Source: Pseudomonadota bacterium (GTDB taxonomy: Bacteria; Pseudomonadota; Gammaproteobacteria; Steroidobacterales; Woeseiaceae). From it: a stretch of DNA of 64,000 nucleotides. The position numbers and the translations under genes are program-made. The notes under the pieces were generated by a model, which was given only the letters and a program-made list of their open reading frames with translations, was not told the origin of the DNA and made no database searches. Location: positions 1 to 64,000 of the forward strand of contig JACZWL010000002.1 of NCBI GenBank assembly GCA_022572185.1, in the 5' to 3' direction. This document shows, in pieces, positions 16,934 through 25,748 of the stretch; the first letter of the stretch is position 1, and every line of letters starts with the position of its first letter.

Positions 16934-16956
16934 GCCCGTCAACATAACCTTGTTGG
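16934..16956 (+). repeat. Copy A of a 23-bp intergenic motif
   Basis: This segment matches 47575-47597 at about 18 of 23 positions and resembles 61767-61789. The shared pattern ends in TTGTTGG/TTGTTGA. All three copies are intergenic and just downstream of a plus-strand gene. Here the motif leads straight into the hairpin array at 16961. Confidence 0.45.
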
Positions 16957-16960
16957 ATCA

Positions 16961-17121
16961 CTAACAGGCTGTTGAAAAACTCTGTTTTTCTACAGCCTGT
17001 TAGCCGGTACAAGGATGTACCGTCATTTTCGATGGCTATAAGCCATTGAAAATGTGAGGGATCCGAAAATCGCACTTTTCGTATCACGTCGTTGAAAAAG
17101 TCATGGAAGACTTTTTTAACA
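16961..17121. repeat. Array of consecutive inverted repeats upstream of ffh
   Basis: The 367 bp between the phosphodiesterase gene and ffh contains no convincing ORF. It does contain back-to-back hairpins: 16961-17003 (20-bp arms, one mismatch, 3-nt loop, built on GGCTGTTGAAAAAC), about 17005-17022 (CGGTAC/GTACCG), 17024-17054 (arms CATTTTCGATGGCT/AGCCATTGAAAATG), about 17065-17083 (CGAAAA/TTTTCG) and about 17091-17121 (GTTGAAAAAGTC/GACTTTTTAAC). The GGCTGTTGAAAAA ends resemble insertion-sequence termini, so a MITE remnant is possible; a structured RNA is the alternative. Confidence 0.6.
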
Positions 17122-22508: not shown

Positions 22509-23681
22509 ATGCGAATTGTTATTTGTCTCGTCGCTGCCACCTTTCTGTCTGTGGTCAATATTTCCAGTGCGGAAGCCAGGACACAGTTCAAGATAGCGAC
22601 GCTTCTTCCCGAGAATACGGATCGCGTGAAGAGAATGCGCGCGGCTGCCGATGAAATCGAGGAGCGCACAAATGGCCGCGTTTCGTTCAAGTATTACTTC
22701 GGCGGAAGTCAGGGGAGTGACGACAAAGTACTTTATAAGATGAAGATCGGCCAGCTTCACGGCTCGACTTATTCGCCGGCTGCTTTACAGAAGGTTTATC
22801 CGGACATCAACATTTATGGCTTGCCATTCATCTTCGAGTCGGAGGATGAAGTGGACTATGTTCGCAAAATTATGGACGTCAAGTTTCAAAGGGGACTTGA
22901 AGAAGCAGGCTTTGTGAATTTCGGCTTTGCGGGCGGTGGTTTTGCGATGGTCTTGTCCAATAAGCCAGTCCGCAGTCACAATGATCTGAAAGGCCAGAAA
23001 GTATGGGTGCCCGAAGGCGATGTATTCAGCTATGAAGCGATGCAGGCGCTGAAGTTGACACCGGTCCCATTGGAAATAGCGAATGTAATGACCGGCCTGC
23101 AGACGGGCTTGATTGATATTGTTGCGATTCCTCCAGCAGGTGCCCTGATTTTTCAATGGCACACCAAAGTCAATTACGTAACGCGAATGCCGGTTATTTT
23201 CACCATGTATTTCATGGTCATTGATGCAAGGGCGTTTAGGCGAATAGAGGCAGCTGATCAGGCGATCGTCAGAGAGGTAATGGGCCGCCTCTACGCTGAG
23301 TTCGATGCGGCTGAGCGAAAAGATGCGCCCAATGCCATGCAAGCGTTAATTAATTCCGGCGTCGAAAGCGTGGAGCCGCTTCCTGACGAGTTCGAGAAGT
23401 TGCGAAAAGAGACGGCCATAGCGAACCGGAGCATGGCGGATCGCGGCATGTTCTCGTCTGAACTGCTGGAAGAGATGTTGTCACACGTGCAGGAATTTCG
23501 GCGCGCGCAGGCGTCCCGTGACACGATGACGTGCGTGCAGGCGGGGGATGAAGTTGACGCCGGGGAGCAGATCGTCCCCGCGACTGAAACCAAAGTGAGG
23601 GAAGCAGGCGGCATGGATGTTTGTGAACCCGATGCAAGCGCGACAGAACCGCTCGAACAGGCTTCTGGGAGCGAAAGCTAG
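22509..23681 (+). CDS. dctP: TRAP transporter solute receptor, DctP family, with C-terminal extension
   Basis: This is a periplasmic substrate-binding subunit. The signal peptide MRIVICLVAATFLSVVNISSAEA is followed by a DctP fold (FKIATLLPENTDRVKRMRAAADEIEERTNGRV, GLPFIFESEDEVDYVRKIMD, GFAGGGFAMVLSN, LKGQKVWVPEGDVFSYEAMQALKLTP). The ATG at 22509 has GGAG 7 nt upstream. At 390 residues it exceeds the usual ~330; the last ~50 residues (after QEFRRAQASRD) form an acidic, Ser/Ala-rich tail with two cysteines. The ligand is not deducible. Its TAG stop overlaps the end of a MITE-like element. Confidence 0.88.
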   Translation: MRIVICLVAATFLSVVNISSAEARTQFKIATLLPENTDRVKRMRAAADEIEERTNGRVSFKYYFGGSQGSDDKVLYKMKIGQLHGSTYSPAALQKVYPDINIYGLPFIFESEDEVDYVRKIMDVKFQRGLEEAGFVNFGFAGGGFAMVLSNKPVRSHNDLKGQKVWVPEGDVFSYEAMQALKLTPVPLEIANVMTGLQTGLIDIVAIPPAGALIFQWHTKVNYVTRMPVIFTMYFMVIDARAFRRIEAADQAIVREVMGRLYAEFDAAERKDAPNAMQALINSGVESVEPLPDEFEKLRKETAIANRSMADRGMFSSELLEEMLSHVQEFRRAQASRDTMTCVQAGDEVDAGEQIVPATETKVREAGGMDVCEPDASATEPLEQASGSES

Positions 23682-23965
23682 TACTCCGTCAAGGTGATAT
23701 TGATGGATTCAGAGCTACCCAGATGATCCAGGACAAGGCGCAGTCCGCAGGGAACGGCATGTCCTTTGCAAGGACTGCAACGCGGTATTGGATCATCTGG
23801 GTAGCTCCCTTCGGGCGAGCCGTGCAGCGGTCGTCCGCGGTGTTGCGCCTCCTGGCAAGGATGTGCCATTACCGGCGAGGTGCGCCGGGCGGTTTTTTAT
23901 GCCCTCTGGGTGCAACCGCTTCACGACTCGCTGAACCCATCATTATCACCTTGACGGAGTACTAG
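23678..23965. mobile_element. MITE-like element between dctP and dctQ
   Basis: A 280-bp insert (23682-23961) starts TACTCCGTCAAGGTGATA and ends with its reverse complement. Homology of the two ends extends over about 30 bp with few mismatches. CTAG flanks both ends (23678-23681 and 23962-23965), consistent with a 4-bp target duplication. An inner inverted pair (GCTACCCAGATGATCCA near 23714, TGGATCATCTGGGTAGC near 23790) lies within. No transposase is encoded, so it would be moved in trans, perhaps by an IS5-like enzyme given the CTAG target. Confidence 0.8.
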
Positions 23966-23967
23966 TA

Positions 23968-24492
23968 ATGACTGGAGCAATATCCAGGTTGCTCGCTCGC
24001 CTGGAGCGTTGGGGAACCGCGGCGGAAAACGCGTCGCTGGTACTGTTGTTGGGCTCTTTGATGATACTGGCGGTCGGCCAGATCGTCTTACGCACCTTTT
24101 TCGACTCCGGCCTGATATGGGCGGATGAGTTACTGAGAATCATGGTGCTCTGGATCGCGCTGATCGCGTCGGTTGCAGCGGCTCGAAGCAAGCGGCACCT
24201 CAGAATCGACATACTTTCGCATTTCGTTCCCGAACGATATACACAGGTTCCCGGCATCATCGTCGATGGATTTACTTCTTCGATCTGTGGTCTGCTTGCG
24301 TGGCACTCGTTCCGCTTCCTGCAGATCACGATAGAGATGGACGACACGGTACTCGTGGATTTTCCATCGTGGATTGCATATGGCATTTTGCCTGTGGCAT
24401 TTTTCCTGATGTGCTACCGCTTTTTCGTGTTGTGTGCAAAAGGAATGGTCGATATTTTTAGCGCGAAAAAAGTTCCGGAAGCAGCGAAATGA
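23968..24492 (+). CDS. dctQ: TRAP transporter small membrane subunit DctQ
   Basis: DctQ is the small, four-helix subunit that joins the large permease subunit. The 174-residue protein has membrane segments ASLVLLLGSLMILAVGQIVLRTFF, LLRIMVLWIALIASVAAARS, FTSSICGLLAWHSFRFLQI and IAYGILPVAFFLMCYRFFVLC, and the family feature WADELLRIMVLW followed by SKRHLRIDIL. The ATG overlaps by 4 bp with dctM downstream. The Shine-Dalgarno GGAG (23956-23959) lies inside the MITE terminal repeat, so translation of this gene now depends on element sequence. Confidence 0.9.
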   Translation: MTGAISRLLARLERWGTAAENASLVLLLGSLMILAVGQIVLRTFFDSGLIWADELLRIMVLWIALIASVAAARSKRHLRIDILSHFVPERYTQVPGIIVDGFTSSICGLLAWHSFRFLQITIEMDDTVLVDFPSWIAYGILPVAFFLMCYRFFVLCAKGMVDIFSAKKVPEAAK

Positions 24493-25748
24493 TATTGCTC
24501 GGGTTGGTGCTTGTGCTCTTGGCCGTTTTTGGCGCACCGCTATTCGCGGTAATCGCGACAAGTGCCATGCTCGGATACCACAAGGAAGGAATCGACCTGA
24601 TGGCAATGGCTATTGAGGTTCTCGGCATTTCACAGATGCCGTTTCTTTCGGCAATACCGCTGTTCACTTTTGCCGGATATCTTCTAAGTGAAAGTGGTGC
24701 TCCCGGCCGCCTTGTGCGGCTCACTGGTGCGGTTCTCGGCTGGATGCCCGGTGGGCTCGCGCTTGTGGCTCTGGGTGCCTGTGCATTTTTCACCGCATTT
24801 ACCGGAGCATCAGGCGTCACGATCATTGCTCTTGGGGCGATTCTCTATCCAGCGCTAAAGGAAGACGGTTACCCGGATAATTTTAATCTCGGCCTTGTCA
24901 CGACCTCTGGCAGCCTGGGTTTGCTATTTGCGCCATCGTTGCCACTTATCCTTTACGGCATTGTTGCCGAAGTCTCGATAGATAACCTGTTTCTGGCCGG
25001 CATTCTGCCAGGTTTGCTCATGCTGATGATGTTGTCGGGGTGGAGCCTCTGGGTCAATCGGGCTAACCGAAAACCGCTCGCTACATTTTCATGGCGCAAG
25101 GTTGGGGCATCACTGCGTGAGTCGATTTGGGAGTTACCGCTTCCGATCGTTGTTCTCGGCGGAATTTATTCCGGCTTCTTTGCGGTTTCGGAAGCTGCTG
25201 CTGTTACGGCACTGTATGTGTTGATTGTAGAAGTCGTCATTCATCGCGAAATAAAGCTGTCGGAGCTGCCACGCATCATGCGTGAGTCCATGCTGCTTGT
25301 CGGGGGAATACTCATCATTTTGGGCGTGTCCCTCGCATCAACGAATTATTTGATCGATGCTGGTGTGCCACAGAAAATACTGGAATTTGTATCGACATTT
25401 GTGAGCGGTCAGGCAAGTTTCCTGTTCCTGTTGCTAATTTTTCTGCTCATACTTGGGGCAATTCTGGATATTTTTTCGGCCACGGTGTTGGTCGTACCCT
25501 TAATTTTGCCGATTGCCGCGCAGTACGGTATAGACGAAGTTCATCTGGGCATCGTATTTCTTGCCGCTATGCAATTGGGTTATCTGACGCCGCCGGTCGG
25601 GTTGAACCTGTTTATCGCGAGCTATCGATTCGATAAGCCCATAATGACGGTCTATTCAGCGACATTCCCGTTTCTGATGATTCTTTTGTTATCCGTTATC
25701 CTGATCATGTACTGGCCGCAGTTATCTCTTTTTCTGGTACCAAACTGA
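24489..25748 (+). CDS. dctM: TRAP transporter large permease subunit DctM
   Basis: DctM is the Na+-driven, elevator-type large subunit. The 419 residues form about 12 spans. Signature regions are ALGACAFFTAFTGASGVTIIALGAILYPAL, GLVTTSGSLGLLFAPSLPLILYGIVAE, GGIYSGFFAVSEAAAVTALYVLIVE and LGIVFLAAMQLGYLTPPVGLNLFIASY. It starts 4 bp inside dctQ. The subunit set is complete (T, P, Q, M), so the transporter should work if the interrupted operon is still transcribed. Confidence 0.93.
   Translation: MILLGLVLVLLAVFGAPLFAVIATSAMLGYHKEGIDLMAMAIEVLGISQMPFLSAIPLFTFAGYLLSESGAPGRLVRLTGAVLGWMPGGLALVALGACAFFTAFTGASGVTIIALGAILYPALKEDGYPDNFNLGLVTTSGSLGLLFAPSLPLILYGIVAEVSIDNLFLAGILPGLLMLMMLSGWSLWVNRANRKPLATFSWRKVGASLRESIWELPLPIVVLGGIYSGFFAVSEAAAVTALYVLIVEVVIHREIKLSELPRIMRESMLLVGGILIILGVSLASTNYLIDAGVPQKILEFVSTFVSGQASFLFLLLIFLLILGAILDIFSATVLVVPLILPIAAQYGIDEVHLGIVFLAAMQLGYLTPPVGLNLFIASYRFDKPIMTVYSATFPFLMILLLSVILIMYWPQLSLFLVPN

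Follow-up and report, generated by a model that had tools for sequence, protein, structure and literature searches.

A non-autonomous IS630/Tc1-mariner-type element between dctP and dctQ and its putative contribution to stop and start signals at gene junctions

In the window, by which we mean the whole stretch of 64,000 nucleotides that was analysed, the TRAP transporter operon dctP-dctQ-dctM is interrupted between dctP and dctQ by a 282-base insert, which is one copy of a previously undescribed small mobile-element family (Table 1). This element behaves as a non-autonomous member of the IS630/Tc1-mariner group and is a variant within the known IS630-type kind of MITE. The best explanation of the locus as a whole, and one that we consider very probable, is that the CTAG ending dctP received such an element at its TA, which rebuilt the stop codon TAG and gave a GGAG motif to dctQ.

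Table 1. Features of the dctP-dctQ-dctM locus, in window positions.
Feature	Position	Strand	Remarks
dctP, TRAP solute-binding protein, 390 aa	22509..23681	+	PF03480, E=5.6e-33; ends at the element
Left terminal repeat arm, with flanking CTA	23678..23712	+	
Left TA target-duplication copy	23679..23680	.	bases 1-2 of the dctP stop TAG, the G being the element's first base; single TA in empty sites
MITE proper, GTACTCC...GGAGTAC	23681..23962	+	282 bp; inverted arms, eight near-full copies, empty sites of homologous copies
Hairpin A, predicted	23712..23807	+	19-bp perfect outer stem; compensatory changes in 19 copies
Hairpin B, predicted	23815..23937	+	limits approximate; core resembles hairpin A; fold, alignment and compensatory changes
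Terminator-like hairpin and T6	23872..23898	+	at chance level; not kept across the family
Right terminal repeat arm, with flanking TAG	23931..23965	-	contains GGAG
GGAG, putative Shine-Dalgarno of dctQ	23956..23959	+	8 nt 5' of the ATG at 23968; buried in the predicted terminal helix
Right TA target-duplication copy	23963..23964	.	sequence and empty sites
dctQ, TRAP small membrane subunit	23968..24492	+	PF04290, E=1.3e-22
dctM, TRAP large membrane subunit	24489..25748	+	PF06808, E=3.5e-81

The element and its family

The two inverted arms of the insert are 35 nt long and 94% complementary, and a second, perfect inverted repeat of 19 nt lies within positions 23678-23965. As judged from empty sites, the element begins with G and terminates with C, its ends being GTACTCCGTCAAGG, and the window contains two occurrences of the end sequence, against none in shuffled sequences. 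Its longest open reading frame (80 aa) has no Pfam match and no transposase was found in it. These features, together with the family present in the genome, bear out the original prediction of a MITE with terminal repeats and without a transposase at this position.

The search for further copies that had been proposed with this prediction uncovered about 74 elements in the source genome. The full element is represented by eight near-full copies in this 3.1-Mb draft, one of which is cut by a contig end, besides shortened copies and many short ones. Across the whole genome, a 20-mer of the element end gave 38 matches with up to three mismatches, and a sister type starting with GTGGTCC gave 46 matches, while the controls (a reversed 20-mer in the first case) gave none. 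In 215 kb of flanking sequence, 84 ends were resolved into 74 elements, namely 48 minis (31 bp plus the TAs), 10 two-ended elements and 16 single ends, so the figure of about 74, taken from the searches and these flanks, covers copies, mini-copies and remnants alike.

In the 31-bp mini, the left end continues at TTGAYGG repeats directly into the right tip, and elements of intermediate length (67, 74 and 189 bp) occur, suggesting from their sequences that the minis are likely deletion collapses of the long element; it is possible that they also transpose themselves. Two hybrid minis (L038 at C24:91654 and L053 at C96:44964) carry one end of each subfamily, GTACTCC...GGACCAC, which suggests mixed-end parents or recombination.

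Related ends were found in 17 of 107 genomes of the taxonomic family, the source genome included, as well as in MAGs labelled Woeseia, Sedimenticola, Halomonas and unclassified Gammaproteobacteria. The plasmid records searched contained no match to the element, and the viral contigs searched contained no exact match to its end. In the MAG Dive96_bin10.234, many contigs terminate inside the element (L205, L207, L218 and other JAJRUV contig ends), indicating that assemblies are broken up by its abundance; counts of its copies in draft genomes are probably too low.

Several other repeats were seen near these elements. A lone truncated end of the sister subfamily, TAGTGATCCAACAAGGTTATGTTGACGG, lies on the minus strand of the window at 16936-16963 and adjoins a CAGGCTGTTGAAA repeat. 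A palindromic repeat, CAGGCTGTTGAAAA...TTTTTCAACAGCCTG, directly adjoins several copies (flanks L004, L010, L064 and L065) and looks like a second repeat family with common insertion neighbourhoods. Short repeated reading frames following the ends at L183 and L224 were considered as transposase fragments and rejected, as they contain no long ORF.

Target site and placement at stop codons

CTAG is present at both ends of the dctP-dctQ copy, and the dctP TAG (23679-23681) overlaps the left one, as had been noted; the further claim that CTAG is the target duplication did not survive the analysis of empty sites. In 73 genomes of one genus searched with the rejoined flanks of 18 copies, the empty counterpart of a 268-bp copy in genome G086 was found in G092; over 182 bp the two are 96% identical, and the empty site has a single TA, with A as the left outer base. 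The empty site of a second long copy likewise shows a single TA. Thus, the duplicated target is the 2-bp TA. In the source genome, the base before TA is C in 72 of the 84 ends and the base after TA is G in 79 of the 84, and G lies outside the far tip in 44 of 48 minis. Copies elsewhere whose left outer base is not C still have C on the inner side of the right end; a duplication of CTAG would not produce this pattern. Together, CTAG is the preferred target and TA is the duplicated one.

TA duplication is documented for ISY100 and IS630 (PMC2170065), and a preference of IS630 for the TA in CTAG is attributed to Tenzen and Ohtsubo 1991 in PMC2170065. The resident IS630 copies sit in CTAG and have similar tips and different inner repeats. 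The element combines three features of an IS630/Tc1-mariner-type MITE, namely TA duplication, inverted ends without a transposase gene and, as in IS630 itself, preference for CTAG.

In the source genome, 33 of the 74 elements (about 45%) stand precisely at the TA+G that closes a long reading frame, the gene contexts being assigned by an ORF-length rule and not by full gene calls. The placement is biased to one reading frame, both in the source genome (35 versus 12 for the other two frames, p=1.5e-8) and among copies elsewhere (34 versus 13, p=5.8e-8), whereas genes truncated at random would show no frame preference. Relative to base composition, CTAG is depleted about six-fold in the source genome, and stop codons make up 12 of the 34 free non-coding or stop CTAGs, a share not significantly below the 33 of 74 of the elements (p=0.41), so that a preference for stop codons beyond that for CTAG was not significant. 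These data indicate that the placement follows from the preference for CTAG, a scarce sequence that frequently serves as a stop, and from the loss of insertions inside genes, and that no sensing of stop codons is needed.

Because the element starts with G, its insertion at the TA of either TAG or TAA rebuilds TAG and leaves the upstream protein intact. In pyk of G086, the filled and empty versions share the final residues and the position of TAG. At the mini site L354, the empty relative has TAA and the filled genome has TAG, which fits a conversion of TAA to TAG by the first G of the element, as read from the two sequences.

At the locus in the window, dctP and dctQ were found near each other, without a comparable insert, in 29 relatives; in five of the best matches the dctP TAG overlaps a GTG start of dctQ, and dctP of the nearest relatives already ends in TAG. 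As DctP identity is only about 50-57%, these relatives show the ancestral arrangement and not the exact empty site. The uninterrupted arrangement speaks against an old structural spacer shared among relatives, the alternative that the original prediction had raised against itself. When the flanks were rejoined in silico, TAG was already present (GAAAGCTAGTAATG), followed two bases later by the ATG of dctQ (GAAAGCTAGTAATGACTGG), indicating that the insertion preserved the dctP stop, left dctQ 286 nt away from it and set GGAG 8 nt before the ATG. The view that the element supplies the stop codon of dctP is thus right only in part: the rejoined flanks and the nearest relatives indicate that the codon was not created by the insertion, but the first base of the element re-forms it. 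The GGAG of dctQ does, as had been claimed, lie inside the right terminal repeat and derives from the element.

RNA structure and translation across the element

The same layout recurs at other gene junctions. At prmB-aroC in the source genome (L006; prmB is named from sequence resemblance, Pfam giving a methyltransferase), at pyk-penicillin amidase (L124) and at frr-uppS (L123), the element sits on the stop codon of the upstream gene and before the start codon of the next. At one and the same position of another tandem pair, G089 has a mini and G086 a partial copy, and G092 has TAG without an element. As cells usually cannot do without UppS and AroC, the genes downstream of the element must still be translated. 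The choice of target and the first base protect the upstream protein and the last bases can start the next one, which offers a simple explanation of how the element can settle between the genes of an operon, even before uppS and aroC. Between the two hairpins of the frr-uppS copy (L123:1645-1740) lies an additional one, AATTGGGGTCGAACCGAAG...CTTCGGTTCGACCCCAATT, which appears to be a different repeat inserted into the element.

The RNA of the element was computed to fold at -172.5 kcal/mol (z=-12.2), with GGAG within the terminal helix, and compensatory changes were found at 55 of 96 predicted pairs among 19 long copies. The family thereby has a covarying two-hairpin structure, and Rfam models gave no match at E<=1 in window positions 23000-24500. 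The cores of hairpins A and B resemble each other, and some copies (L196 and L225) have a single hairpin. G-U was favoured over A-C in hairpin A (29 versus 9), A-C over G-U in hairpin B (12 versus 6), and the two were equal in the ends (6 versus 6). This mixed asymmetry does not tell selection on the RNA apart from a process in the DNA, where one arm may have been corrected from the other.

Opening the dctQ start region was computed to cost about 30 kcal/mol in the free RNA; the value dropped to 6-7 when a ribosome occupied the dctP stop and was 32 when one stood 57 nt upstream, the terminating ribosome being modelled as 32 nt blocked around the stop and the opened region covering the whole GGAG. 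A ribosome at the stop likewise lowered the computed cost from 25 to 10 at prmB-aroC and from 31 to 15 at pyk-amidase; a comparable outcome would be expected of any long palindrome.

We propose the following mechanism. A non-autonomous IS630/Tc1-mariner-type element has very probably entered the TA of the CTAG ending dctP, where TA and the first G restore TAG whether TAG or TAA was hit, and its other end, GGAGTAC-TA, provides GGAG to a start codon that follows closely. The terminal repeats would then pair in the mRNA and hide GGAG; a ribosome terminating at the dctP UAG would cover the 5' arm and free it, so that dctQ would be translated mainly after dctP. As GGAG is freed cheaply in the model only with a ribosome at the stop, we suggest, tentatively, that translational coupling of dctP and dctQ may survive the 286-nt insert through stop-dependent release of GGAG. 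If so, translational couplers could be carried ready-made to new places by a mobile element. The generalization that the element may be a portable stop-start bridge, whose tip would read as a stop inward and as a Shine-Dalgarno outward, hidden by end pairing until termination, so that tandem genes stay coupled, appears somewhat unlikely; if true, coupling across hundreds of bases would let the element survive in operons of essential genes.

The chances are about even that the element is a plain selfish MITE that affects spacing only, with dctQ using GGAG at ordinary efficiency or being less expressed and with a structure that has no translational role. The preference for CTAG alone explains its placement at stops (see the comparison with free sites above), and many copies do not lie between tandem genes; against this, GGAG is predicted to be fully paired without a ribosome and aroC or uppS lies downstream elsewhere, so some opening is needed. 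The original prediction had also suggested partial termination between the subunit genes. A role in reducing dctQM relative to dctP, by partial termination of transcription or by RNA processing, would be consistent with a single stem on the coding strand that runs into T6, with the very stable predicted fold and with the reported effect of Yersinia ERIC elements on transcript stability (PMC2229807), but it is unlikely, because terminator-like sites in the element are at the level of chance (1 versus 0.6 expected) and the T6 run occurs in only 6 of the 19 aligned copies and is missing from 13.

Parentage and relation to known elements

The original prediction had called for a full IS with matching terminal repeats and an IS5-like parent. 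Searches of the source genome, of copy-bearing relatives and of 246 genomes of the order (DDE_3/IS630) revealed no transposase with matching ends, and an IS5-like parent is not supported by the empty sites, which show the TA duplication that is a hallmark of IS630/Tc1-mariner. None of about 30 IS630 loci examined has the ends of the MITE, an absence that weighs little in draft genomes, and several copy-rich drafts have no match to DDE_3. The only DDE_3 (IS630) copy of the source genome (L090, C3:151-1319) sits in CTAG and has the tips GTGTAGTGTCTC, unlike the inner repeats of the MITE.

REP-like palindromes mobilised by RAYT (Y1_Tnp) instead of a DDE transposase would fit the short palindromic minis in dozens of copies and the Y1_Tnp genes of the source genome, but this is very improbable, given that single-strand HUH transposition is not expected to duplicate TA and that Y1_Tnp had no match in the copy-rich drafts G086 and G089; 5 of 7 genomes carrying the repeats have a Y1_Tnp gene. 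An IS5-like MITE with CTAG as its target duplication, suggested by the CTAG at both ends of the dctP-dctQ copy, is contradicted by the single-TA empty site with A outside and by the inner C of copies whose outer base is not C, and is hardly credible.

Among known systems, IS630/ISY100 of the Tc1-mariner family share with the element TA duplication, preference for CTAG and tips starting with GT; different from them, the MITE has no transposase gene, and its inner terminal repeat differs from that of every IS630 copy examined. RUP of Streptococcus pneumoniae is also a TA-targeting MITE that is ascribed to an IS630 transposase, forms a stable fold when transcribed and is present in about 100 copies (PMC2229807, PMC3049150), but it is 107 bp long, resides in another host phylum and has a known IS630 parent, whereas the parent of the MITE here was not found; the descriptions cited, as far as they cover RUP, give it no stop-codon or GGAG role (PMC2229807, PMC3049150). 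ERIC/IRU elements of enterobacteria are likewise flanked by TA, structured and cotranscribed with neighbouring genes, and ribosome-induced opening of an RNA site has been proposed for them, for RNase E and not for a Shine-Dalgarno (PMC2229807); with 127 bp and one long stem, they are set apart from the MITE by their published description, in length and inner structure. BOX elements of pneumococcus are similarly modular, in that their conserved ends enclose structured modules whose number varies (PMC3049150), but differ in sequence and modules and are ascribed to ISSpn2 (PMC3049150). REP/REPIN palindromes resemble the minis in being short, present in many copies and located near gene ends (PMC3733652, PMC3116915), whereas the MITE lacks the GTAG/CGTC tag logic and has a TA duplication.
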